DNA from: a virus
Reading direction: 5' to 3' (one strand)
Virus record (IMG/VR): IMGVR_UViG_3300025401_000080
Location: 1-29,685 of that record
Length of the DNA: 29,685 bases
Both the position numbers and the translations under genes were made by a program. Every line of letters begins with the position of its first letter. The first letter of the stretch is position 1. Shown here in pieces: positions 4,920 through 17,987 of the stretch. The notes under the pieces are model-generated. The model had not been told where the DNA came from. It was given only the letters and a program-made list of their open reading frames with translations, and made no database searches.

Positions 4920-6569
4920 TTACATACCCATGCCCATCATAGGATCTGGAGTGTCTTGCTCTTTATCTGATTTTTTTTCAAGTACCACGGCATCTACTGT
5001 GAGTATTGTACCAGCTACACTCGCTGCATTTTTTATAGAAGATATTACTACTTTTGTAGGATCAAGTAGACCAGCTTCAATACCATTTACTACTGCTCTA
5101 TTTTTAGCATCAAATGTTGTAAATGCATCGTCTTTAGAATTTACATTATATAAAATTTCATACCAATTCTCAATACCTGAATTTGATAGAATTGTTTTAA
5201 ATGGCGCATAGCAGGCAGTTTCTACTATAGAAAGAGCAATCTTTTCATTTGAATTCCAATTTATAGTATTATTCTTTATAGACATAAATGCTTTGATAAG
5301 TGCAATACCACCGCCTGGAAGTATACCTTCTGCAAGTGCGGCTTTAGTCGCCAGAAGTGCATCTTCTACTCTGTCTTTCTTTTCTTTGATCTCAATTTCA
5401 GAATTTCCACCTACATTTATAATAGCAACTCCACCTACAAGTTTACCAAGACGCTCTTGAAGTTTCTCTTTTTCAAAAAATGATGTTGCACTTTCTATCT
5501 GCTCTTTAATCTCATTTGCTCTATTAGAAATTGCTGTCTCATCCCCTTTACCATCTACTATTGTAGTAGTCTCTTTAGCTACTGTGGCAAGACGTGATTT
5601 ACCTAGATATTTATCTAATTCTGAAGATGAGAGTTTATCAAGTTTATGTCCTTTGCTTTTTGACATTACTGTACCTCCAGTAAGAATTGCCATATCTTCA
5701 AGAATCAAAGTTCTTCTATCTCCAAAGTCTGGTGCTTTTACTGCACATACTTTTACTACATTTCGCATTTTATTTACGATCATTAGTGCGAGTGCCTCAT
5801 CTCCAAAGTCTTCTGCAATTACTAGAAGTGATCTATTTTCAGTATTTGCTTTCTGTAGAAATGGAATCATCTCAGCTGCAGTTTGAATACGACCATCATA
5901 GAGCATAATATAGCAATCATCTAGTACTGCATTCATTGTAGTATTATTAGTCACAAAATATGGACTCTTATATCCACGATCAAATTGCATACCTTCAACT
6001 ACTTCAAGAGTAGTTTCACCGGTCTTAGATTCTTCAATAGTCACAATACCTTCACGACCAACTTTATCTATAGCAGCAGAGATTAGCTCTCCTACTTCAA
6101 TATCATTATTACCTGAGATAGTTGCCACTTGTTTAATTTGATCTTCTGTGCTGACATCTACTGATAGTGATTTAAGTTGATCTATAATCATAGAGACTGT
6201 CTTATCAATACCGTGCTTAACTTCTACTGCATTAACTCCTTGACGTATAGTCTTCATTCCCCCTTGAATCATCTTTGTTGCAAGTAACGTAGATGTTGTT
6301 GTACCATCACCAGCCTCATTTGCTGATTTAATTGATACTTGTTTTACCATCTGTGCTCCAAGATCTTCTATATCATTTTCAAGTCTATTAAAGGCCTTTG
6401 AGCAAGTTACTCCGTCTTTTGTGGCTTTTACTTCACCATAAGGTTCACGTATTAATACTGTTCGTCCACCTGGACCTAATGTAGATGATACTATATCATT
6501 GAGTTTATTAATTCCAGCAAGAAGTTGCTCTTTAAGTTCTGTCCCTATTAAATGTTTTGTTTCGCTCAT
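4920..6569 (-). CDS. groEL: GroEL-type chaperonin (60 kDa subunit)
   Basis: This 549-residue protein is full length for a group I chaperonin. It forms the ATP-driven folding chamber, presumably for phage proteins such as capsid or replication subunits that the host chaperonin handles poorly. Visible landmarks are LGPGGR (31-36), the ATP-site Asp52, the DGTTT nucleotide loop (88-92), the PGGG signature of the C-terminal equatorial domain (ILPGGGIAL) and the hydrolytic Asp in [15 protein letters not shown]. It ends in a GMGM tail. The gene starts 1 base after the groES stop. Apart from sequence divergence I see no missing catalytic residue. Chaperonin genes are uncommon in phages and are known from a minority of large ones. 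Confidence 0.97.
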
Positions 6570-6570
6570 A

Positions 6571-6861
6571 TTAATTTATTATTGCTAAAATTTCTGTTTC
6601 TCTTGTTATATAATAGTCTTGTCCTTCTAGTTTTACTGACATTGATCCAAGTTTTGGAATAAGTACAATGTCTCCTACATTTAGATTTGAAGGGACTTCT
6701 TTATCAGTGTGATAGTTCCAAGCATTTGAGATTGCTACTACTTCACCTGATTCTGGACGCTCTTTGCCCATGTCTGGAAGGATAATATTTCCTACCATAT
6801 CTTCCGATGTTTCTACTGGTCGCAGTACTACATGACCATTTAGTGGTTTTAATTTTGACAT
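6571..6861 (-). CDS. groES: GroES-type co-chaperonin
   Basis: This 96-residue co-chaperonin would form the heptameric lid for GroEL. It contains the N-terminal LKPLNGHVVLRPVE strand, a mobile loop in SEDMVGNIILPDMGKERPE (the hydrophobic IIL tripeptide contacts GroEL), GEVVAI, VGDIVLIPKLG and a C-terminal ITRETEILAII strand. The length is normal. It is immediately upstream of groEL with one base between stop and start, the usual groES-groEL order, so the pair is co-expressed. The two probably work as a matched set, though use with host GroEL cannot be excluded. Confidence 0.95.
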   Translation of the reverse strand: MSKLKPLNGHVVLRPVETSEDMVGNIILPDMGKERPESGEVVAISNAWNYHTDKEVPSNLNVGDIVLIPKLGSMSVKLEGQDYYITRETEILAIIN

Positions 6862-7239: not shown

Positions 7240-9549
7240 TTAGTGGCCATCTTTCCAATTGTAGGCAATAGCTGGAGGTGCTTTAAGATCTATGCTTATT
7301 TTAGTAGTATTTTCCATACAATCTTGTACTATCTTAGCACAGATTTCTGCATCTTTTGCTGGCACTTCTGTAATAATCTGATCATGAATTTGTGCACATA
7401 CCCAGCCATTTATACCTAAATCTTTGAGTCGTCTATTAATTGCAATGGCAGCACGGTTTACTATAGATGCAGATAACCCCTGAATCTGTACATTTCTGGC
7501 ATTATTAATACCATTAATATAGTCTCTATACAGCTTAGTAACTTTATCTTTACCATATTGTTTAATTAATAATTGTCTAACTTGCCAATCAGTAATAGCC
7601 TCTCCTAGAGTATCATGTATCTTTTTAACCTTGTCTAAGTGACGTATACGACCTACTTGAGTTTTTACATACCCTAGATTTTGTGCATCATATTTAGATC
7701 TGTCCATCCACTCTTTTAGTGCAGGAAATCCATTAAGATAACCGTCTACTAAAACTTGTGCCTGTTTTGCTGGTATACCTAGATTCATACCAAGTGCATA
7801 AGCTCCCATACCATAAGGAATACCTAGAGCATAGGCTTTGGCTTTATTTCTAAGTTTTGGCGCCTGCTTTCTTAAGAAATTTTCTGCTTTTTTATCAGGG
7901 GAGTATTGATCTAATTTTTCTGTTTTTATTGCGATAGTAGAGTAGAAGTCCCAGTTATTCCTAAAGATGTCCTTGAGTCCATCATCTCCAGATACATGTG
8001 CGAATACATGTGGCTCAAGAGACTCATAGTCACAATCTATAAATTTATTATCTGTATCTGGAATAAAGAATGCTCTTACTAGATTTGTATATTCTACTAC
8101 TATAGGATCATCATCGCCTTCTTCTTTAGGTCTAGGTAATTGCTGAGAGTCTGAACCATATCTTCCAGAGACTGTGCCATGCTGTTTATAATAAAAGAAA
8201 TATCGACCATCTTCATGTGCTTCTAAGAATCTATCCATATAAGTAGATCTTATTTTTAGTAACTTACCATATATCCTTAGATTTTTAGCCCATTCATATT
8301 TATCTGAAATACTTTGAATAAGTTCATCATCAAATTGTGGTTTGCCTCCTGGTGTACTTGATAGTGGTTTTATACCTAGTGCATTGAATGCAATATCTCC
8401 CATTTGATCTTTAGACTGTATATTAAAAAATAGTCCATCATTATCGTCTTTCCATAGTTTAAGACTAATTGCTTGAATATCAGAATCTTCTAATAAAAAA
8501 TCATGACCTTCAATTAAAAATCTCTGTGCTGGTGAAGCGGGCAATAAAGTTAGATTTGATCTTGTAATATTATATTTTCCAGTTTTTTCAGATTTTGGAA
8601 GTGGTAATTTATAATAATCTGCAATAGCTTGAGCAAATTTGCCTTTATTACTTACTGGCCACTCTTGTTGAGCCTTATTTAATATCCAAGTTTTAACTTG
8701 TTGTTTTGATAGTAGATCTTTAGTAATTATATCTATATACTTGCTCATCTCCATATTTATCTTTTCTCTTGAAGATTTAATGAGTTCAATATCTAATTTT
8801 ACCCCCTTATCTTCCATAGGTATAGTTACTTCTTTATAAAGAGGCATAACCTCATCATTAAAAAAGAAATTAGTCAAACCCTGTTCTTCAATCTTAGTAA
8901 GATAGTAATCATATATCCTAAGAGTTAAGTCAACGTCAGCGCAGGCGTATTTTGAGAGTATATCAAGATCAGCTTTCCAAATCTCATAATTGTCTTTTGT
9001 AATACTACCCCCATTTCTTTTTATAGACTCTTTAAGTTCTATCTGCTCTTGATTAGCCTCACTAGATACATCAATGCCAATTTCAGATTGTATGCTTTTA
9101 GCCACCTCTTTAAGTGCAAAAGACCCACCTCCATTTTCTGAATTTACACCCTCTTCTTGAATAGTATGCACCATAAGTATAGTATCTGCATGAATACTAT
9201 TAATAAGATCTACTCCATAAAAATTATTAACGAATCTGGCATCGAAAGATAAGTTATGCCCTATAATTTTTTTATCAATTAATAGTGCAATAATTCTCTT
9301 AGCTATATCATGGCATAGCACACCCTCTATCTTAGAGTCTATAAGCAGACCATCTTGAAGGATCATAGTAGGCATATAGTAACCATGATCCCTTTCTCCA
9401 GTAATAGAGAATCCTATAATTTTACCTTTTCTGGGATTTAGAGAGTTTGTTTCAGTATCAAATGCAATTATATCATGCTTTTGAATGTGAGCTATCATCT
9501 CCTTGACGCTCGCTAAAGTATTTACTGTTAAATATTGTCTCTGAGTCAT
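7240..9549 (-). CDS. polA: Family A DNA polymerase with 3'-5' exonuclease (main replicase)
   Basis: This 769-residue replicative polymerase has an N-terminal DnaQ-like exonuclease with Exo I FDTETNSL (about 30-37), Exo II GHNLSFDARF and Exo III YACADVDLTLRIY. The polymerase domain carries TVSGRYGSD, motif A DCDYESLEPHVFAH (catalytic Asp507), motif B RNKAKAYALGIPYG (from 567) and motif C IHDQI (His722, Asp723). In motif C, Gln replaces the usual Glu of HDE. In motif A the E of DYSQIE appears as the E of LEPH. There is no 5'-3' nuclease domain; that activity is encoded separately at 16747-17775. Its start lies inside the end of the preceding 84-residue gene (77-base overlap). The order of genes around it differs from T4, which uses a family B polymerase. 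Confidence 0.96.
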   Translation of the reverse strand: MTQRQYLTVNTLASVKEMIAHIQKHDIIAFDTETNSLNPRKGKIIGFSITGERDHGYYMPTMILQDGLLIDSKIEGVLCHDIAKRIIALLIDKKIIGHNLSFDARFVNNFYGVDLINSIHADTILMVHTIQEEGVNSENGGGSFALKEVAKSIQSEIGIDVSSEANQEQIELKESIKRNGGSITKDNYEIWKADLDILSKYACADVDLTLRIYDYYLTKIEEQGLTNFFFNDEVMPLYKEVTIPMEDKGVKLDIELIKSSREKINMEMSKYIDIITKDLLSKQQVKTWILNKAQQEWPVSNKGKFAQAIADYYKLPLPKSEKTGKYNITRSNLTLLPASPAQRFLIEGHDFLLEDSDIQAISLKLWKDDNDGLFFNIQSKDQMGDIAFNALGIKPLSSTPGGKPQFDDELIQSISDKYEWAKNLRIYGKLLKIRSTYMDRFLEAHEDGRYFFYYKQHGTVSGRYGSDSQQLPRPKEEGDDDPIVVEYTNLVRAFFIPDTDNKFIDCDYESLEPHVFAHVSGDDGLKDIFRNNWDFYSTIAIKTEKLDQYSPDKKAENFLRKQAPKLRNKAKAYALGIPYGMGAYALGMNLGIPAKQAQVLVDGYLNGFPALKEWMDRSKYDAQNLGYVKTQVGRIRHLDKVKKIHDTLGEAITDWQVRQLLIKQYGKDKVTKLYRDYINGINNARNVQIQGLSASIVNRAAIAINRRLKDLGINGWVCAQIHDQIITEVPAKDAEICAKIVQDCMENTTKISIDLKAPPAIAYNWKDGH

Positions 9550-9727
9550 GACTTTTATTTTTATAGGGAAGTAATCTATTTAGTGCACCTTGTCGTCTTT
9601 GGCATCCACAGTCCTGTAAACCTAGTATTTTTTTAGCAAACCATGAAGAAAATTTATCAAGTCCAAAGAAATGCGTAAATTTAGCTACAGTGTCTCCAAA
9701 ACCTCTACTGCTTATCTTGTTTTTCAT
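9473..9727 (-). CDS. Small CGC-motif phage protein, 84 residues
   Basis: The first 56 residues read like a small protein seen in several phages: GFGDTVAKFTHFFGLDK, a helix, then LQDCGCQRRQGALNRLLPYK. The C-G-C pair followed by basic residues could bind metal or nucleic acid, but no function is known to me. Residues after about 58 are Ser/Asp-rich and coincide with the first 77 bases of the polymerase gene in another frame, so the tail may be a by-product of the overlap. It also overlaps the upstream membrane-protein gene by 23 bases. All three genes are probably translationally coupled. Confidence 0.65.
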   Translation of the reverse strand: MKNKISSRGFGDTVAKFTHFFGLDKFSSWFAKKILGLQDCGCQRRQGALNRLLPYKNKSHDSETIFNSKYFSERQGDDSSHSKA

Positions 9728-9902
9728 CTATCTTTTTTTCTAATACAGTCAATGCACTTGCTACACCTATTACTATATTGTGTATTTGTAATTCTAATTG
9801 AACTTTAAGTGATTTTATTTTAGACCACTGATACACTTGCAATATTATCAGCAATAAGATAATTGATAAATAAATATTCTCTGTTGTTATAGTAAATGTC
9901 AT
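9705..9902 (-). CDS. Small single-span membrane protein
   Basis: This 65-residue protein has one strong hydrophobic segment, from about residue 10 to 24 (IYLSIILLLIILQVYQW), followed by a charged helical region ending KKIDEKQDKQ that could form a coiled coil. The short N-terminus without positive charges and the basic WSKIKSLK after the span suggest the C-terminus faces the cytoplasm. Its function is unknown. It has the size of an accessory holin/spanin-like or superinfection-exclusion protein, but it lies in the replication region and nothing supports lysis. It overlaps the next gene by 23 bases. Confidence 0.65.
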   Translation of the reverse strand: MTFTITTENIYLSIILLLIILQVYQWSKIKSLKVQLELQIHNIVIGVASALTVLEKKIDEKQDKQ

Positions 9903-9952
9903 ATTTAAATCTATGATTTTTTTATAACATTATTAAATATTTCTTATGAGTA

Positions 9953-10768
9953 TTATAATTCTATACTCAATCTTTTAAGAAATCTCTTATATAATTGCTC
10001 ATCAGTTGACCAAGCCTTAATCTTGACCAGCTCAGAATAAAAATTATCTCTTGCTGTCTCAATTCTGTCTTTTATCCACGGTCCTCTTAGGAATAAAAAA
10101 GGAACTGCTGTATTTTTATACTTATTATATACCTCATCGTAGCTCTTAGTCTTTATGTCAGAAAGAGCCTTAAATAGTTGGCTTTTAACTGTTGACATTG
10201 CCACCTTATCCTTGTCTTTCTTTGCAAGCCCTGAGGCTATTGTATTTATCAGAGTTGAAGTATGTGCATCAAATTCTGCAGGTGAATTTAAGTGCGCTAT
10301 AAGATCCTTTTCATATTGCTCTATTTTATCTGGGCTTGCATTCTTACTCGGGGCTTTAGGTGCTCTCACTCCAAGTTTTGCATCTAATTCTGCATCATAG
10401 GCTTTTGGGTCTATAGCATGTACTAGTTCGTGTTCTATGCTTGTTACAAAATTATACTCGTCTGTTAATTTTGAGAGATTTACTATAACTGCCCTGTTCT
10501 GCTGGTCCATTCTAGCATAAGCATTATCTTTAGGATCATTATACAGTCCTAGACTTATCGATATTAAATTACCTCTAAGATCTTCTATATTAAATATATT
10601 CTTAAAGCTCTTAGGAATATACGGGTCTTGTATATAGCTTTTAGGTGATTTCTTTTTAAGAGAGTCTGCATTCTTTTTTATGTAAGAAAACGCAGAATCA
10701 GCCTTTAATAACTGACTCTGCGGTATCTTTATTATCTTCTCAGTAAGTAGATCTACTAATTTTATCAT
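9953..10768 (-). CDS. Putative zinc metallopeptidase (HExxH)
   Basis: This 271-residue protein has HELVH at 113-117, within a hydrophobic-flanked helix (TSIEHELVHAID). This is the classic zincin active site, with Glu114 as general base. A downstream EFDAH (165-169) could give the third ligand. The rest is rich in Lys and helices, with a Pro/Lys linker near residues 135-150. The first 17 residues, MIKLVDLLTEKIIKIPQ, resemble the start of the leucine-rich-repeat protein at 20458-20883. That may be a packaging or sorting tag, or a propeptide. The target could be a virion or host protein; I do not see a link to known prohead proteases. Its start lies 3 bases after a TATAAATA-like motif at the NrdJ-C stop. 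Confidence 0.6.
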   Translation of the reverse strand: MIKLVDLLTEKIIKIPQSQLLKADSAFSYIKKNADSLKKKSPKSYIQDPYIPKSFKNIFNIEDLRGNLISISLGLYNDPKDNAYARMDQQNRAVIVNLSKLTDEYNFVTSIEHELVHAIDPKAYDAELDAKLGVRAPKAPSKNASPDKIEQYEKDLIAHLNSPAEFDAHTSTLINTIASGLAKKDKDKVAMSTVKSQLFKALSDIKTKSYDEVYNKYKNTAVPFLFLRGPWIKDRIETARDNFYSELVKIKAWSTDEQLYKRFLKRLSIEL

Positions 10769-10782: not shown

Positions 10783-11466
10783 CTATACTGCTATCTCACA
10801 TGCATTTCCAGCACATGCCACTTGATCCTTAAGATCTGTATTATCATCTGACTCTATTACTTTTGATAAGTCTATATTTGTCAATGATTTCATCATCTCT
10901 TCATATTTCTCCTTAGTGCAATCTTCAAAAGGCGCTTGGATATATGTATGATCTGAAAATGGAAGTACTGAAAGTCCATTATAGCAATTCTTATTCTCCC
11001 ACATCCAATTACCAACTTCCTCCCACTCATTATCTTTAATTGATACTGTTGCAGAAATATTATGCGTATTTTGTCCAGTGATATGACCAGGCTTAATCCA
11101 ATATTCGTAAAAATGTTTTACTCTATTTAAAAGATCTAATGCTGATTCTGTTCTTAATATTGACCCTTGTGGAGCTCTTTGAGGTACTGATATTACTGCT
11201 GTATCATGTGGTCTAAAGTATTCATCTTGTACCAGCTCTGGATGATATATGCTTAGATATGTATAGATTGCTTCATTCTTACCTACTCTTATATTCCTGA
11301 TATAATATTCATTATGCCATGCATGTATGCCAGAAGATGTGCCCAGGACTAAAGAGGAGGTGTTATGAACCACAGATTTATTTTTTAGTTGATATGTATG
11401 AGTATTATCTACTTCTATGTCAACAGTAAATTTATTTCCAGACTTTGTTATCTTTTTAATTTTCAT
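10783..11466 (-). CDS. nrdJ-C: NrdJ C-terminal fragment preceded by a split-intein C half
   Basis: Residues 1-35 are the C-terminal half of a split intein, ending HTYQLKNKSVVHN. Asn35 is the cleaving residue and the next residue, Thr36, is the extein nucleophile. Residues 36-227 are the last 192 residues of a class II, adenosylcobalamin-dependent ribonucleoside triphosphate reductase: TSSLVLGTSSGIHAWH, PQRAPQGSI and a C-terminal CAGNAC, whose C-x4-C spacing equals the redox-shuttle pair C731/C736 of the Lactobacillus enzyme. It must be joined to the middle fragment by trans-splicing, giving KPSG-TSSLVLG. The start overlaps the homing endonuclease stop by 11 bases. The conserved PSGT phosphate-binding loop is completed only after splicing. 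Confidence 0.93.
   Translation of the reverse strand: MKIKKITKSGNKFTVDIEVDNTHTYQLKNKSVVHNTSSLVLGTSSGIHAWHNEYYIRNIRVGKNEAIYTYLSIYHPELVQDEYFRPHDTAVISVPQRAPQGSILRTESALDLLNRVKHFYEYWIKPGHITGQNTHNISATVSIKDNEWEEVGNWMWENKNCYNGLSVLPFSDHTYIQAPFEDCTKEKYEEMMKSLTNIDLSKVIESDDNTDLKDQVACAGNACEIAV
11362..11466 (-). other. Split intein 2, C-terminal half (35 residues)
   Basis: This intein fragment contains block F (FTVDIEVDNTHTYQL) and block G (SVVHN, then Thr). The penultimate His and terminal Asn needed for Asn cyclisation are present. It pairs with the N half at 12669-12995. The 35-residue length is typical of naturally split C-inteins. Confidence 0.9.
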
Positions 11467-12601
11467 AATATTTAATTAATTCTATTATATTTTCTAATAT
11501 TAATTGCTTGTTTTTTAAATAATCTGATTCTTTAACTCTAATTAAATTTAATCCTATATTAGCATATATCTTATCCTTTAGTCTATCTCTCTCTATATTA
11601 TTAGGTAGAGAATGCCAATAATCTCCATCAAATTCAATTACAGTATTTCCTATTTTAATATCTGGTACTATGCACTTTATTGGATAATCATTCTGGTTTA
11701 GATTTATAAAATATGGTTTTGTTATTGGGTAGCCAAAAAATATTTCTTTTTGCTTACTATTTAATAAACCATATAGTGATAAATTAAAATCTTTTTCTAT
11801 ATTTGAACTAAAATCTGGAAAATAACTAATTTTCTTTTTTATCATATCAGAATATAAAAGTCTACCCTCTACTTCTCCAAATTTATCTATATAATATTCC
11901 AGTCTTCCAGATTTTCCTCTACTATAACATAATTCTTTATATCTATTTAAACCTTCAGTTTTTCCAAATTTAGAAATATAATAATCTTTAGTTTGTGTAT
12001 ATGCTCTTTTCTTATTAGCAAAATTATATTTTTCCTTTCCTATATCACTACCATACTTTTTTATATAATAATCCAATCCTCTTGATTGATTCTTACTAAC
12101 AAATTCTTTAGCTTCTGATTCACTAATATTATAATATTTCATTACAGATTTATAATCTCTATTAGAATATCCACCATCTATCTTCTTTTTGTATCTTAAT
12201 CTACCTTCATCTTCTCCATATTTTTTTATCATACTTTCTAAGTCAGTCTTTGAATTGATAGAGTGTTTTTCTTTAATAGCTTTTATCTCCTCATCACTAT
12301 ATCCATTTAATTTTAAAGCATTTATACTAACTGAAAGTCTACTATTTTTTTCTAGATACTTTTTTCTACCTACTACTTCTCCATATCTTTTAATAAATCC
12401 GTCTATGGTATTTTTAAACTTATCATTTTCTATTTTTTGTTTATATCTGATCAAGCCTAAATCTTTTCCATATTTAAATTGTAATACTTTTAAAGAAGAT
12501 CCTCGCATTAAATTTGCACATCTTTTGCTACCCTCCTTTTCTCCAAGTAAATGAATTAGTAGTCTTCTAAGTCTATTAATTTTTTTTATATCTTTTTTCA
12601 C
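11456..12601 (-). CDS. Vsr-like (EDxHD) homing endonuclease between nrdJ fragments
   Basis: This 381-residue protein has two parts. Residues 1 to about 270 hold about seven imperfect copies of a [KR][YF]G-x3-G-x2-RY-x2-K motif, which look like DNA-binding repeats. Residues 313-381 form a Vsr-type nuclease core: PDIKIGNTVIEFDGDYWH (Glu323, Asp325, Asp327, His330), then RDRLKDKIY and GLNLIRVKESDY. The same layout, a free-standing EDxHD endonuclease between two split-intein halves, was described in metagenomic fractured genes by Dassa and colleagues. It would cut uninterrupted nrdJ alleles and spread the split-intein cassette. The start is GTG (12601-12599), inside a 15-bp inverted repeat that may restrict translation. 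Its stop overlaps the NrdJ-C start. Confidence 0.85.
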   Translation of the reverse strand: MKKDIKKINRLRRLLIHLLGEKEGSKRCANLMRGSSLKVLQFKYGKDLGLIRYKQKIENDKFKNTIDGFIKRYGEVVGRKKYLEKNSRLSVSINALKLNGYSDEEIKAIKEKHSINSKTDLESMIKKYGEDEGRLRYKKKIDGGYSNRDYKSVMKYYNISESEAKEFVSKNQSRGLDYYIKKYGSDIGKEKYNFANKKRAYTQTKDYYISKFGKTEGLNRYKELCYSRGKSGRLEYYIDKFGEVEGRLLYSDMIKKKISYFPDFSSNIEKDFNLSLYGLLNSKQKEIFFGYPITKPYFINLNQNDYPIKCIVPDIKIGNTVIEFDGDYWHSLPNNIERDRLKDKIYANIGLNLIRVKESDYLKNKQLILENIIELIKYYEN

Positions 12602-12660
12602 AATTAAGCCTTTTATTATAAATATCTAATTAATTATGATAATAAGCTTAATTGTGAAAA
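12595..12660 (-). promoter_or_regulatory. 15-bp perfect inverted repeat burying the homing-endonuclease start codon
   Basis: The arms at 12646-12660 and 12595-12609 are exact reverse complements; on the minus strand they read TTTTCACAATTAAGC and GCTTAATTGTGAAAA. The GTG start codon (12601-12599) lies in the 3' arm and the loop is 36 bases. In mRNA read through from nrdJ-M the start would be paired. A transcript starting inside the loop would leave it free. T4 homing endonuclease genes are known to use such sequestering hairpins. Confidence 0.55.
12616..12625 (-). promoter_or_regulatory. ATATTTATAA motif inside the hairpin loop before the Vsr-like endonuclease
   Basis: The minus strand reads ATATTTATAATAAAA, 14 bases before the GTG start and within the loop of the inverted repeat. 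A promoter here would produce mRNA lacking the 5' arm and so expose the start codon. The motif recurs at other junctions. The promoter role is inference. Confidence 0.3.
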
Positions 12661-12665
12661 TTAAT

Positions 12666-13475
12666 CTAATAATTTACAATATCATCACTATCTTCCAATT
12701 CATCTGCTCTAATCCACCCTCTATTTTTAGTTAAAAATTTATGATTTGCTGTAACTGTAACTACCAAGCCATCTTCAAACTCTACATCAAATGTTTCTTC
12801 TATTCCATTAATGTATAATTTATTAATTTGTTGCCATTCATCATTTAAGTCTTTGACTTTTATATCTTCTGTTACTTCTAAAAATAGCTTTTCATTATTC
12901 TTAAAATCAAGTAAATCATATCCATTTGCTTTAAATATCTCTTCTAATGAAAGAATTCCTTTATTTGTTATTATTTCAGTTTCAGGTACCATACACCCAC
13001 TGGGTTTTATTGTAGTACAACGAGCAGCAGAATTAATTCCTATGATTTTAGCCACCTCTAAATTAGTGCTTTTTACTATATTTGAGGCCATTTCAAGATC
13101 TAAATTTTGAACAACTCCAGATCCAATACCAGTCATACCAACTCCTATAAGTGCCTCTTTTTCTGTAGTTCTCTGCCAAACTGATCTAAGATAGTGGAAA
13201 TTTGTGTAACCGGCTTGCAATGTTCCAATTAGCGCGGCAGCTTTAACTCTTTTATTAAGATCCGCTTGATCTACTACATCTGATACATTTACTTCACATA
13301 AATTACAGAATTGGAAAGGACGTAGTGCAATTTCACAACAATTATGTACTAGTAATCCATTAGCAAAGAAGTTGTGATTTTTCTTCATACTAATATCATA
13401 TACATCCTCATTTGACACTATACTCTTTTTTATTATTTTTATTTTGGTAATTCCAGTAATCGAATTTCTTTCCAT
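12666..13475 (-). CDS. nrdJ-M: NrdJ middle fragment flanked by two split-intein halves
   Basis: This 269-residue protein is a sandwich. Residues 1-45 are the C half of split intein 1, ending NFFANGLLVHN. Residues 46-160 are 115 residues of class II ribonucleotide reductase, beginning CCEIALRPFQFC and ending TTIKPSG. Residues 161-269 are the N half of split intein 2, beginning CMVPETEIIT. The extein's first Cys and the Cys 11 residues later match the thiyl-radical C408 and redox C419 of Lactobacillus RTPR, with E410 in CCE. So the active-site core is carried by a fragment that must be spliced at both ends. The upstream 99-residue gene overlaps its start by 37 bases. It has no known activity unspliced. 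Confidence 0.94.
   Translation of the reverse strand: MERNSITGITKIKIIKKSIVSNEDVYDISMKKNHNFFANGLLVHNCCEIALRPFQFCNLCEVNVSDVVDQADLNKRVKAAALIGTLQAGYTNFHYLRSVWQRTTEKEALIGVGMTGIGSGVVQNLDLEMASNIVKSTNLEVAKIIGINSAARCTTIKPSGCMVPETEIITNKGILSLEEIFKANGYDLLDFKNNEKLFLEVTEDIKVKDLNDEWQQINKLYINGIEETFDVEFEDGLVVTVTANHKFLTKNRGWIRADELEDSDDIVNY
12669..12995 (-). other. Split intein 2, N-terminal half (109 residues)
   Basis: It begins with Cys1 in CMVPETEI (block A) and has block B TANHKFLTKNRGW with the conserved T-x-x-H. It ends EDSDDIVNY at the stop, just where naturally split N-inteins end. No endonuclease domain is inside it. It pairs with the C half at 11362-11466 and inserts at KPSG|T of NrdJ. Confidence 0.9.
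13341..13475 (-). other. Split intein 1, C-terminal half (45 residues)
   Basis: Block F is VYDISMKKNHNFFANG and block G is LLVHN followed by Cys (+1). The SNEDVYDI and NFFANG elements resemble the C half of the split intein named NrdJ-1. It pairs with the N half at 13767-14114. Confidence 0.92.
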
Positions 13476-13738
13476 TTTTTTAAATAGTTTATATTTTTTA
13501 TTTTATATAAATTAATATTCTGTATTAATGATATTTGTGTATTTATAACTTTTTTAAGTTTTTCAACTTTATAAGAATTAACGGTTAAATATCCCTTTAT
13601 TTCTACGATAACATTCAAATTATCATACTCATCAGATATTTTTATATTACAACCTTTCTGAAATCTACCATATGATTCATTGTATACATCTAATATAAAT
13701 TGAACTTCTTCTTTTGTAAAATTGGGGTATAAATCCAT
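13439..13738 (-). CDS. Small protein in the first intein break, possible PD-(D/E)XK remnant
   Basis: This 99-residue protein lies between the NrdJ-N stop and the NrdJ-M start, the slot occupied by the Vsr-like endonuclease in the second break. It contains YDNLNVIVEIKGYLT (Asp39, Glu46, Lys48), a D-x6-E-x-K arrangement. This resembles the PD-(D/E)XK nuclease core, where a hydrophobic strand ending E-x-K-G-Y is common. The rest is Lys/Ile/Asn-rich and unremarkable. It could be a minimal or decayed homing endonuclease or an unrelated small protein. It overlaps the NrdJ-M start by 37 bases and follows NrdJ-N by 25 bases. Confidence that it is expressed is moderate; confidence in the nuclease idea is low. 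Confidence 0.5.
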   Translation of the reverse strand: MDLYPNFTKEEVQFILDVYNESYGRFQKGCNIKISDEYDNLNVIVEIKGYLTVNSYKVEKLKKVINTQISLIQNINLYKIKNINYLKKWKEIRLLELPK

Positions 13739-13763
13739 GTTATTATTTTACAAAAAATATCAA

Positions 13764-15050
13764 TTAAATTGAGATTAATACATCATCTTCAATTAATTTT
13801 GCTGCTTCTGTCCAACCTCTATTTTCTGTATAGACTCTATGATCTGGAGTAAGTTTTATAGTTTGTCCATTATCTAAACTTAATTCTATTAATTCTGCAT
13901 TTTCTTTTGTCTTTTTAGCCCAATTCATATAATCATATTCTAATTCCTTCGTATCTTCATTAAATGTTAATACCATAGGAGGATAATCACTAGTTTCATA
14001 TAAATCTACTAATATCTTCATTGGAATTTGATATACTACTCCTTCAGATAAAGATTCATTTCCAGATACTCCATTGTGATCTTTTACAGTAATTAAAGAA
14101 TCTCCTGAAATACATGGGTTTGTACCCCAATCTTTATCATTATTTAAGTAGATACCAGGCTCTCCACTGCCTGAATTTTTAATCTTATCCCAAAGACTCA
14201 TAAAGAATTCTTTGGTTATTTTATTTCTAAGAAGTACTGCTGAGTTATTTGCTCTGCCACGTTGAGGATTAAGTTCCCACCAATTTCCAGATTTACAAGA
14301 AATCATTTCATCATCATCAGCAGAGAATAGAGAAATCAGCGCAGCTCTACGAATGCCTCCGGCTAATACTGCATCTGCAATATGACACACCATATCATGC
14401 ACTTCTATTGAAGATAATTTATCCCCATTCTCCTTTTGACTTAATATGCTCTCTAATTTAAATAGACACTCTTTTAGTGGTTGAGGTCCTGGTGCTTTAC
14501 CTCCTGAAGTAACAAGTGCTGCACCTTTAGGTCTAATATCAGAGAAATCAAATTCTAGAGATGAGCTGCCTTCAAAATAAGATTTTACTAGAGCTTTTAC
14601 TGCATCTGCCCAGCCTTCAATAGAATCATTGATTAAGAATCTCTTTTTTCTCTTTTTATTTGGAAGTTTTATCTCTGGTAACTTTTCTACGTGATGTTTT
14701 TGTACTGAAAATCCCACTCCAGTTCCACCTAGTAAAAGAAACATAGTCTCTGAAAATGATCTATAATCATCTATAGGCAGATATGCACAGTTATAAATTC
14801 TATTTGGACTGATTTCGATAGACTTTCCTCCAAATTGAAGGCTTCTCATAGAAGGAAGTACTTTCTTATCATAAACTAATTCATATGCATCTTCAATCTC
14901 TTTAGTTAATTGAGGGTACTTTTTAAGATGCATTTCCATGTTTCTCGTAACTAGATCTTCCCAAGTCTCTCTTCTTTGCAATTGCGGCAGATATTTTGAG
15001 TATTTCATATATACTGTAATATCTGATAATATTTTCTGTTCTATATTCAT
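13764..15050 (-). CDS. nrdJ-N: NrdJ N-terminal fragment followed by a split-intein N half
   Basis: Residues 1-312 are the N-terminal part of class II (adenosylcobalamin-dependent) ribonucleoside triphosphate reductase of the monomeric RTPR type: PSMRSLQFGG, YNCAYLPIDD (Cys88, equivalent to redox C119), LLLGGTGVGFSVQ, GGIRRAALIS and SGEPGIYLNND, ending WGTNP. Residues 313-428 are a split-intein N half. After both splices the mature enzyme would be 312+115+192 = 619 residues, shorter than the roughly 740 of the Lactobacillus enzyme. It reduces ribonucleoside triphosphates without oxygen and without a second subunit, but needs host or scavenged B12. The 75-base leader has no recognisable B12 riboswitch. 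Confidence 0.94.
   Translation of the reverse strand: MNIEQKILSDITVYMKYSKYLPQLQRRETWEDLVTRNMEMHLKKYPQLTKEIEDAYELVYDKKVLPSMRSLQFGGKSIEISPNRIYNCAYLPIDDYRSFSETMFLLLGGTGVGFSVQKHHVEKLPEIKLPNKKRKKRFLINDSIEGWADAVKALVKSYFEGSSSLEFDFSDIRPKGAALVTSGGKAPGPQPLKECLFKLESILSQKENGDKLSSIEVHDMVCHIADAVLAGGIRRAALISLFSADDDEMISCKSGNWWELNPQRGRANNSAVLLRNKITKEFFMSLWDKIKNSGSGEPGIYLNNDKDWGTNPCISGDSLITVKDHNGVSGNESLSEGVVYQIPMKILVDLYETSDYPPMVLTFNEDTKELEYDYMNWAKKTKENAELIELSLDNGQTIKLTPDHRVYTENRGWTEAAKLIEDDVLISI
13767..14114 (-). other. Split intein 1, N-terminal half (116 residues)
   Basis: Cys1 begins block A CISGDSLITV. Block B is TPDHRVYTENRGWTEA with the conserved T-x-x-H. It ends EDDVLISI at the stop. The upstream residue is Pro of GTNP and the joined product reads NP-CCEIAL, an exact class II RNR active-site sequence. 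Confidence 0.93.
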
Positions 15051-16746: not shown

Positions 16747-17775
16747 TTATTTGTATTTTGCTATTTCGTTAAAATTTGTATATAACCAAGATTGTAAATT
16801 TGTAATGCTTGCTCCTAGTTGATCTTCATTATATAGAGAAGTAAATATTGCAGGTTCATATCCTTTATTAGGATTTTGTATCATTGAGTCTATTTCAATC
16901 TTTGAATCTTCTGGAATATTAGGTTCATCTAAATCCATTAATTGTCTATTGATCTCTAATTGATTTTTAAAAGCGTATATCTTTTGCAATATTGGTACTT
17001 CACTATCTTTGCATTTGTTTATAATATGCTCTAGATTAATAGTACGTAATTCTCCTAATTCTGGAAAATGCTTTAACAAAGTCTTAGGACCTAATCCTTT
17101 AACTCCAGGAACATTATCGCCCTTGTCTCCAAGTAGTATCTTCTGAGTTAAGAAATTATTAGATGTGACTTCGTACTCACTTAAGACGTCTTTTGGAGAA
17201 TAGAATTTTTTCTTTGTTGGAGAGTAAATACTTATTCTATCTGATGCTAGCTGTAGATAATCTCTGTCTGAAGACATAATAGTTACCTCTTTTCCTATAT
17301 GTTTTGCTATATATCCTATGACATCATCTGCCTCTATCTTGTCTATTGATAGTAGATCTACTGGAAGACATTTGAGATAGTCTATGAGCCTCAGAAGCTG
17401 GTTTTTAATAGCATCAGATTCTTCATCTTGTGAATCAAATATATCCCAATTTGTAATGCGTTTTACTCCTCGATTGGCTTTGTATTCAGGGTAGAGGTAG
17501 CGCTTATTTGTAGAACTACCTCTACCATCGAATACTATTATGACACGTGTTGGTCTTACTAGTCTCATCCCATATGCCATAGACTTAAGAAACCCTGTTA
17601 GTGCTCCTATATGCTGCCCTGCTGGATTTACATGCTGGATCATTGCAAAGGATCTTAGAAAGTTGTTGAGTTAAAGACCGTCGACTATGAAAACCTTTGA
17701 ATTCAGGCTTAAGTCGACGGTCTGTGTATTATTTTGTGAAAGATCATTTATCATTTCTGCATATCTACTATTCAT
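16747..17775 (-). CDS. FEN/RNase H-type 5'-3' nuclease interrupted by an in-frame TAA (candidate ribosomal hop)
   Basis: This nuclease would remove RNA primers and 5' flaps. The downstream part holds the usual motifs: IIVFDGRGS, YPEYKANRGVKR, IEADDVIGY, MSSDRDYLQL and the helix-hairpin region LGDKGDNVPGVKGLGPKTL. Read from the first ATG (17643), the enzyme lacks its N-terminal strand with the first catalytic Asp. That piece lies in the same frame upstream. An ATG at 17775, overlapping the previous gene's stop as ATGA, opens 34 codons ending KVFIVDGL, followed by TAA (17673-17671) and then LNNFLRSFAMIQHVNPAG. Family members read DGLNxF. Removing CTT-TAA, or hopping from CTT to CTC, gives exactly DGLNNFLRSF. 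TAA ends other genes here, so the code is standard. A broken gene is the alternative. Confidence 0.85.
17668..17723 (-). promoter_or_regulatory. CTT-TAA-CTC hop site preceded by a perfect 12-bp inverted repeat
   Basis: On the minus strand the arm AGACCGTCGACT (17723-17712) is repeated in inverted form as AGTCGACGGTCT (17686-17675) with a 25-base loop. The second arm runs into the CTT codon (17676-17674), which is followed by TAA (17673-17671) and CTC (17670-17668). One tRNA-Leu with anticodon GAG reads both CUU and CUC, so re-pairing 6 bases downstream is possible. The inverted repeat could slow or reposition ribosomes, as structure does in T4 gene 60, or be incidental. Confidence 0.55.
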
Positions 17776-17987
17776 ATTATAGATTTAATTTTTTTTATTT
17801 TTTGTAATTTATTTAAAGATTCCCATTCGGCCTGCCAAATTACTATATATCTTATATTATTACTTATAGCATGCGCTTTTCTATTATCATCTATGGTCCA
17901 CTGTTCTGGTGTAAGTTCTAGATCTTCTTTCTTAGTCCAGAATTTCGCATCTTCTTTTTTCTTTAATATAAAATCTTTTAGCGTCAT
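17772..17987 (-). CDS. Small protein resembling the C-terminal end of a Vsr-type endonuclease
   Basis: This 71-residue protein is Lys-rich at its N-terminus. Its second half, DDNRKAHAISNNIRYIVIWQAEW, matches the closing helix-strand of Vsr-like and related endonucleases (R-K-x-A-x6-Y-x-V-x-W-x-x-E-W). The catalytic part that should precede it is missing, and only 9 bases separate its start from the UvsX stop, so no room exists for it. It is either a remnant kept as a small gene or an unrelated protein. Its TGA stop overlaps the new 5' nuclease start as ATGA, supporting both calls. If it is a homing-endonuclease relic, it lies directly beside the interrupted nuclease gene. Confidence 0.5.
   Translation of the reverse strand: MTLKDFILKKKEDAKFWTKKEDLELTPEQWTIDDNRKAHAISNNIRYIVIWQAEWESLNKLQKIKKIKSII

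Follow-up and report, generated by a model that had tools for sequence, protein, structure and literature searches.

A 5' nuclease gene split by an in-frame stop codon

The window, that is, the whole stretch of DNA analysed here, is a 29,685-base virus record. On its minus strand, it contains a 5'-3' exonuclease gene in which 34 codons terminating in KVFIVDGL are followed by TAA and, in the same frame, by the remainder of the enzyme, the frame being uninterrupted from the stop down to 16747. A previous sequence-only reading had proposed that ribosomes hop over this stop, leaving the CTT codon before it (take-off) and resuming on the CTC codon after it (landing). The coordinates it gave for the gene, the CTT and CTC flanks, the overlap of the nuclease ATG (17775-17773) with the TGA of an upstream 71-aa ORF as ATGA and the 12-bp inverted repeat are all present in the sequence. 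The repeat had been described as ending in the take-off codon, and its 3' arm does reach the second base of CTT. The features of the locus are the following:

17772..17987, minus strand: 71-aa ORF with a homing endonuclease remnant in its C-terminal part (HMM E = 1.4e-11, profile positions 265-320)
16747-17775, minus strand: stop-split 5'-3' exonuclease gene (34 codons, TAA, same-frame remainder)
17674..17775, minus strand: first coding segment, 34 codons, MNSRYAEMINDLSQNNTQTVDLSLNSKVFIVDGL, carrying the first conserved Asp of the 5' nuclease
17712..17723, minus strand: 5' arm of the outer 12-bp stem (AGACCGTCGACT); predicted fold, with a covarying counterpart in the 25 aligned carriers
17691..17710, minus strand: inner 6-bp stem and 8-nt loop within the hairpin (arms 17705-17710 and 17691-17696); predicted fold
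17675..17686, minus strand: 3' arm of the outer stem (AGTCGACGGTCT), whose last base is the second base of the take-off codon
17674..17676, minus strand: take-off codon CTT (Leu), read from the sequence
17671..17673, minus strand: in-frame stop TAA, the putatively skipped triplet (TGA in contig L095)
17668..17670, minus strand: landing codon CTC (Leu), read from the sequence; undecoded under the hop model
16747..17670, minus strand: second coding segment, 307 aa plus stop, remainder of the FEN/5'-3' exonuclease (PF02739; under purifying selection in carriers other than the window)

Carriers are hereafter the contigs with this arrangement, and L-numbers are labels of the IMG/VR contigs compared. 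The window protein matches PF02739 with E = 1.9e-27, and the second segment matches PF01367 slightly below its cut-off. In an alignment based on a profile of relatives, the Asp of the first segment corresponds to that in the VDG of Taq polymerase. The N-terminal part of the 71-aa ORF is also present in a 192-aa ORF of L001. Elsewhere on the minus strand, two frames (4920-6569 and 6571-6861) resemble by eye a phage chaperonin pair of the GroEL and GroES type.

Recurrence of the arrangement in divergent phage nucleases

The 6-nt arrangement was found in 53 IMG/VR contigs besides the window, with 26 distinct upstream sequences after near copies were collapsed. Their common design is [IV]-D-G-L, with Leu encoded by CTT, CTC or CTG, then any of the three stops, and then L-N, with Leu encoded by CTN. 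One pattern scan not fixed to CTN gave 13 matches, 4 of which were dropped as other proteins. When any codon was permitted between DxL and LN, 11 matches were obtained, all with a stop; ten came from the window's group, and the other was L096, a diverged nuclease that reads CTT TGA CTA and has a 10-bp inverted repeat of its own, the end of which falls in the take-off codon. A second pattern (CTT, TAA or TGA, CTN) retrieved 36 matches, comprising 30 nucleases and 6 that were dropped. A third ([IV]DG-CTN-TRR-YTN-N-x-[FY]) retrieved 53 viral matches, of which 51 were stop-broken 5' nucleases by translation and two (L221 and L227) were dropped as non-nucleases; L100 and L104 were found by the second pattern alone. 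CTN at take-off was built into the scans that yielded most carriers. A longer pattern aimed at other take-off codons, narrower than the CTN scans, retrieved no matches, and neither did the third pattern in genome_contigs, which holds 257 billion bases by its description.

We also assembled a collection blind to the stop, using conserved internal motifs. Its best 80 members included one 6-nt form (L138, the contig of L205) and one 5-nt form, L177. Since this collection yielded so few, carriers are a minority among relatives, albeit numerous in absolute terms. In L177 (positions 1990-2010), TTG and TAG are followed by a 5-nt offset before AAT, and both the hairpin (-26.3 kcal/mol, folded separately) and an upstream endonuclease are present; this contig represents either a frame-changing variant of the hop or a 1-nt sequence error. 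Cultured phages were screened by tblastn, the queries being the nuclease parts of the window, L107, L099, L115 and L102. The junction was read in three of the nearest records (LR756508.1, PP395634.1 and MW353177.1), all of which lack the stop, a result that holds for these three and does not clear the collection.

Codons at the junction

The take-off codon is CTT in 36, CTC in 8 and CTG in 2 of the 46 distinct carrier segments (22, 3 and 1 in the 26 distinct carriers), and the landing codon is CTN alone. The matching take-off and landing codons of bypassing are thus found as CTN on both sides in 46 out of 46 segments, at take-off partly by choice of pattern; the patterns and collections not fixed to CTN recovered only CTN, except for the TTG of L177. 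The two codons are identical in 12 out of 46 segments and share their first two bases in the others. Among the 26 distinct carriers, landing codons are CTC (12), CTA (5), CTT (5) and CTG (4), and stops are TGA (10), TAA (8) and TAG (8). TGG, which the TRR of the third pattern permits, occupied the stop position in 0 out of 51 cases.

The third pattern also allowed TTR at the landing position, and its absence there is not due to composition, because non-carriers from the best 80 of the internal-motif collection use TTA or TTG for 27 out of 58 Leu codons at the same place. The chance of finding no TTR at landing would be (31/58) to the power 26, that is, 8e-8, for carriers that are in fact not independent. 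In the window itself, Leu is encoded most often by TTA (360 out of 800 codons), and CTC is seldom used (35). All 46 distinct segments have C immediately after the stop; in E. coli, a C following the stop weakens termination.

A covarying hairpin before the stop

The RNA from 17730 to 17669 of the window folds at a predicted -26.4 kcal/mol (z = -7.0), and none of 200 shuffles were equally stable. We extended this analysis to 54 carrier rows, including the window and excluding L177; L101 was dropped, as it has no upstream DNA. These rows comprise 33 distinct sequences, 26 after collapsing near copies, of which 25 were aligned (without L092). In a search confined to stems ending in the last six bases, all 33 distinct upstream sequences contained a stem of 7-19 uninterrupted pairs that ends 0-4 nt before the stop. 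The mean fold energy over 72 nt was -25.5 kcal/mol in the 26 distinct carriers, compared to -12.0 kcal/mol in 99 distinct non-carriers (Mann-Whitney p = 4e-12). When upstream codons were shuffled, an equally long stem arose in at most 5 out of 300 shuffles for 16 of the 26 carriers, in 9 to 28 for four and in 38 to 108 for the remaining six, in which stem length alone is therefore unremarkable.

In the MAFFT alignment of 25 carriers, 91.2% of stem cells are paired, and the covariation score was 0.329 versus 0.175 in shuffles, with 0 out of 500 shuffles as high. At three pairs, both partners are altered in 8 to 11 sequences, and shifting the partner by 1-3 columns lowered the score. Two further measures were unexceptional, namely the number of pairs with double changes (138 out of 500 shuffles as high) and the pair types (58 out of 500). 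The catalytic Asp codon (GAC/GAT) pairs through its third base with the other arm as G-C in 16 sequences, A-U in 8 and G-U in 1, and another pair reads A-U, G-U and G-C across L216, L224 and L218. An mRNA structure at the take-off site is thus present and covaries in carriers, and it may stimulate the hop.

Hairpins are not confined to carriers, since 10 out of 99 distinct non-carriers fold below -18 kcal/mol. In L161, L169, L173 and L178, a strong hairpin lies farther upstream. In L129, L143, L148 and L182, it ends at the DGL codon with no stop after it, and these four share one branch of a quick tree with carriers L096, L220 and L222. The stop may therefore have been lost in them; alternatively, the hairpin may serve a separate purpose.

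Purifying selection on the nuclease downstream of the stop

Downstream of the stop, dN/dS was 0.03-0.24 in 13 out of 18 carrier pairs. Synonymous sites were saturated in four of the others, and the last, L223/L226, gave 0.82 from only 4 changes. The 13 include one pair from the window's group (L087/L085, dN/dS 0.05), whose divergence is probably mostly older than the stop-containing block. Exactly one PF02739 match, each with one internal stop, was found in 11 out of 11 carrier records (26-157 kb), which may be incomplete, as may that of the window (29.7 kb); a twelfth record, that of the non-nuclease L221, had no PF02739 match. The second complete 5' nuclease that, according to the sequence-only reading, would have undermined the hop is thus missing from all 11 carrier records searched. 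The first ATG, GTG or TTG of the downstream frame is found anywhere from 2 to 89 codons past the stop, at no conserved position; no start codon was seen in L108, which is shortened by its contig.

The homologous genes, whose comparison had been suggested as a check, show an uninterrupted Asp-x-x-Asn (DGLN-type) motif in 151 out of 151 non-carrier rows (70 and 81 from two sets). In 22 aligned non-carriers, Asp37, Gly38, Asn40 and Arg44 are identical throughout and Leu39 is almost so, and the alignment with Taq polymerase has no gaps between Asp and Arg. An AlphaFold model of the non-carrier L124 (mean pLDDT 88.0) predicts that a strand stops at Asp37 and that a helix runs from residue 38; its structural matches include T5 flap endonuclease, E. 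coli ExoIX and T4 RNase H. The window thus belongs to the FEN/5'-3' exonuclease family by PF02739, and a non-carrier relative does so by profile and fold, against the Taq, T5 and T4 enzymes.

The stop-containing block in close relatives of the window

Relatives were fetched with the part of the protein from MIQHV on (best 80 of 545), and 79 of them span the region. The same in-frame TAA block is present in 9 out of 79 of these best matches and absent in 70. Over ~120 bp, it is identical to the window in 8 out of 9 further IMG/VR contigs; in the ninth, L004 (= L092), it has two substitutions and a 2-nt upstream deletion. This deletion falls in the 5' arm of the hairpin and shifts the usual ATG out of frame, and an alternative ATG would hold VDLSLNSKVFIVDGL, the end of the first segment, in frame. 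The block occurs on two nuclease backgrounds separated by 122 synonymous nucleotides and 50 codons, and four distinct upstream arrangements precede it. Its spread looks like local horizontal transfer.

A tenth contig, L095, has TGA and the landing codon CTT and retains Leu-stop-Leu-Asn. It differs from the window at 9 positions over ~12.1 kb, three of which fall within 8 nt at the stop and landing site (TAA>TGA, CTC>CTT and AAC>AAT) and six elsewhere. The clustering of these differences at ~17665-17672 of the minus strand suggests local conversion or repair. In the downstream gene, the window's near group shows 0-2 synonymous and 0 nonsynonymous changes, too few for a selection test.

Association with homing endonucleases

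A protein of ~320-340 aa is encoded directly before the nuclease in 12 out of 46 carriers (L177 included) versus 0 out of 145 non-carriers, counting contigs with at least 1.2 kb upstream. This association is significant for contigs (Fisher p = 1e-8) and for collapsed sets (3e-7), with a bias towards detection in carriers, as proteins from seven of the carriers themselves served to build the profile. Six of the upstream proteins were scanned: NUMOD3 was above the cut-off in three, MTES_1575 was below its cut-off, and five matched PHROGs named homing or HNH endonuclease. The endonuclease of L097 had no match in 50,697 phage records, and its PDB matches, mostly designed ankyrin repeat proteins, were uninformative. 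A different endonuclease-like gene of 202-205 aa precedes the nuclease in two carriers, L004 and L011, and in one non-carrier, L007. In the window and L095, the 71-aa ORF retains the terminal portion of the ~320-340 aa family. No upstream endonuclease is present in L102; its near relatives L103 and L113 have one.

In a quick tree of 140 nucleases, whose details are uncertain owing to long branches and in which L177 was scored as a non-carrier, the 30 scattered carriers require at least 12 gains or losses, 6 of them forced by starred branches. The two marks of a mobile cassette, an adjacent endonuclease and presence/absence variation, are thus both found. The element probably originated, and was disseminated, as a self-immunity change tied to a free-standing endonuclease inserted just upstream, an enzyme whose likely target would be the conserved active-site codons. 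We propose that the hop renders this change harmless, so that the element can outlast the decay of its endonuclease, as in the window. On balance, we consider it likely that carriers represent a widespread mobile family of stop-hops (a stop between CTN codons and a 5' zipper hairpin), which endonucleases would carry into the codons for the active site of phage 5' nucleases, with the hop as the price of immunity.

On the minus strand of the window, positions 10783-15050 contain a ribonucleotide reductase alpha gene in several frames, with matches to intein splicing domains at 13764-15050 (below cut-off) and 12666-13475 (above cut-off) and an MTES_1575-type frame at 11456-12601 (below cut-off); the region resembles split inteins accompanied by free-standing endonucleases. 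Another gene of homing-endonuclease-like type (phrog_314) lies at 1379-2008, also on the minus strand. By eye, recA/uvsX-like genes seem interrupted by endonuclease- or intein-like frames in L105 (~9168-10200), L209 (~41-1270) and L223 (~289-2000, reverse complement).

A proposed translational hop and its alternatives

Relatives read D-G-L-N without insertion, and a 6-nt hop would therefore restore the family motif exactly. The two segments jointly match the family without loss, the gap between them being presumably untranslated. From these sequence comparisons, we infer that the insert is a programmed stop-hop element, that is, a short translational bypass, linked to homing endonucleases, and assign this reading a probability of about 0.8. 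The hop put forward in the sequence-only reading is accordingly the explanation we favour. The ribosome would translate the first segment up to CTT and stall with the stop in its A site. The peptidyl-tRNA-Leu would then let go, the mRNA would move by 6 nt, and the tRNA would re-pair with the CTN codon past the stop, so that decoding would restart at Asn and yield the normal DGLN enzyme. The 3' arm of the hairpin would span the P-site and E-site codons and could zip fully only after they exit the ribosome. By analogy with T4 gene 60 and its 5' stem loop, the hairpin may form behind the ribosome, pull the mRNA and bar return to the take-off codon. A hop of this kind requires just an empty A site, and any stop should therefore work, as observed.

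The alternative that survives best, which we nevertheless regard as unlikely, is programmed readthrough, in which a near-cognate or special tRNA would decode the stop and Leu would follow, giving a DGL-X-L-N protein two residues longer. The shared frame downstream of the stop and the C that follows it in all 46 distinct segments agree with readthrough, and RNA structures are known to promote it in other systems. It is at odds with the use of the three stops about equally and leaves CTN on either side unexplained. Moreover, a sense codon stood at DGL-X-LN in 0 out of 11 open-pattern matches (from two lineages only), TGG in 0 out of 51, and insertions in 0 out of 151 non-carriers. The spacing of Asp, Gly and Asn is fixed in 22 out of 22 aligned non-carriers and ungapped relative to Taq polymerase; as the modelled helix starts right after Asp, two extra residues would land in its first turn. 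Readthrough would also run out of frame across the 5-nt offset of L177, a single contig.

Two other explanations appear very improbable. The gene could produce a short peptide and, from an internal start, a two-piece or altered nuclease, or the truncated form could be dominant. The window does have an ATG as the tenth codon past the stop, and split genes beside homing endonucleases are known in T4-like phages (PMC2988022). Against this, the first in-frame start varies from 2 to 89 codons after the stop and lies more than 40 codons in for L096, L097, L107, L211, L212, L220 and L223, and neither the matched CTN codons nor the hairpin would be explained. The other, equally improbable, is that polymerase slippage or RNA processing, aided by the hairpin, removes the 6 nt from some transcripts. 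A hairpin with short flanking repeats could in principle assist transcript realignment, but only CT is common to all segments, which is probably too short for usual slippage, and the inserted triplet is always a stop, a property relevant to the ribosome and irrelevant to polymerase.

A sequencing error or a decayed gene, to which the further 2-nt deletion upstream in L004 might point, can be set aside almost entirely, and the earlier argument against decay is strengthened, given that the block is common to nine other contigs, dN/dS is below 0.25 in 13 out of 18 carrier pairs, the hairpin has compensatory changes, and the stop-bearing gene is the sole 5'-3' exonuclease match in 11 out of 11 carrier records. 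An intron was ruled out, as the block comes straight after a uvsX-like gene in L002 and L087. An alternative genetic code was also ruled out: the 32 gene-like frames of the window end in TAA (27), TAG (3) and TGA (2), and all three stops are found at the site in carriers.

Implications

The best reading of the sequences is that the locus encodes a natural in-frame stop hop, a variant of bypassing akin in kind to the T4 gene 60/mobA cassette. If true, this would be the first natural hop of its type, and homing endonucleases would repeatedly recruit ribosome bypassing for self-protection. Knowledge of efficient bypassing was previously based mainly on one phage gene and yeast mitochondria; dozens of natural variants of take-off codon, stop, landing codon and hairpin would make the release and re-pairing of the ribosome directly testable. 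Gene finders are likely to truncate or overlook this replication nuclease in carrier phages, and the hop suggests that some genes with apparent readthrough may instead be stop-hops.

Comparison with known systems

No such element appeared among the papers listed from the open-licence literature on bypassing or hopping (since 2015), phage ribosomal hops, endonuclease-linked bypass and flap endonuclease recoding, which is not proof of absence in print; the sequence-only reading had likewise regarded a natural short stop-hop in a phage replication nuclease as new. The closest constructs, made in E. coli, are synthetic stop-hops (Weiss et al. 1987, cited in PMC5009743), in which matched codons around a stop allowed 9 nt to yield one amino acid; they share the matched flanking codons with the element, but were constructs, whereas the element is natural. 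A 2016 review considered that in-frame stop hopping could underlie some supposed cases of readthrough, with no occurrences known (PMC5009743). In Magnusiomyces capitatus mitochondria, ribosomes skip inserts, several of which have imperfectly matched codons, as in the element; unlike the phage element with its conserved hairpin, these inserts are mitochondrial nucleotide blocks said to be independent of mRNA context (PMC5009743).

The endonucleases of the element resemble the seg and mob endonucleases of T4-like phages in lying between genes, beside conserved ones, with co-conversion of flanking DNA (PMC2988022). They differ in that their matches are of NUMOD3 and MTES_1575 type, and any GIY-YIG or HNH class would be putative.

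A natural system akin to the element is T4 gene 60/mobA. Like the element, it has a take-off codon followed by a stop, a matching landing codon and stem loops at or 5' of take-off, and it combines an insert in a replication gene with an adjacent homing endonuclease and a proposed protection from cleavage (PMC5009743, PMC11194080 and PMC3014915). The carrier hairpin lies where the model for gene 60 places a fold that forms behind the ribosome and pulls the mRNA (PMC5009743). The two systems differ in gene and in endonuclease family, and the ~50 nt gap of the gene 60 type is not found here: gene 60 has a 50 nt gap between Gly GGA codons, whereas the element has 6 nt in frame (5 nt in L177) between Leu CTN codons, with any of the three stops. 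Gene 60 also has a KKYK-type nascent-peptide signal; in the element, a counterpart at the gene 60 spacing is unlikely, given first segments as short as ~19 codons (L109 and L115). Finally, the T4 case is termed apparently unique to T4 in PMC3014915, whereas the element is present in many uncultured phages.
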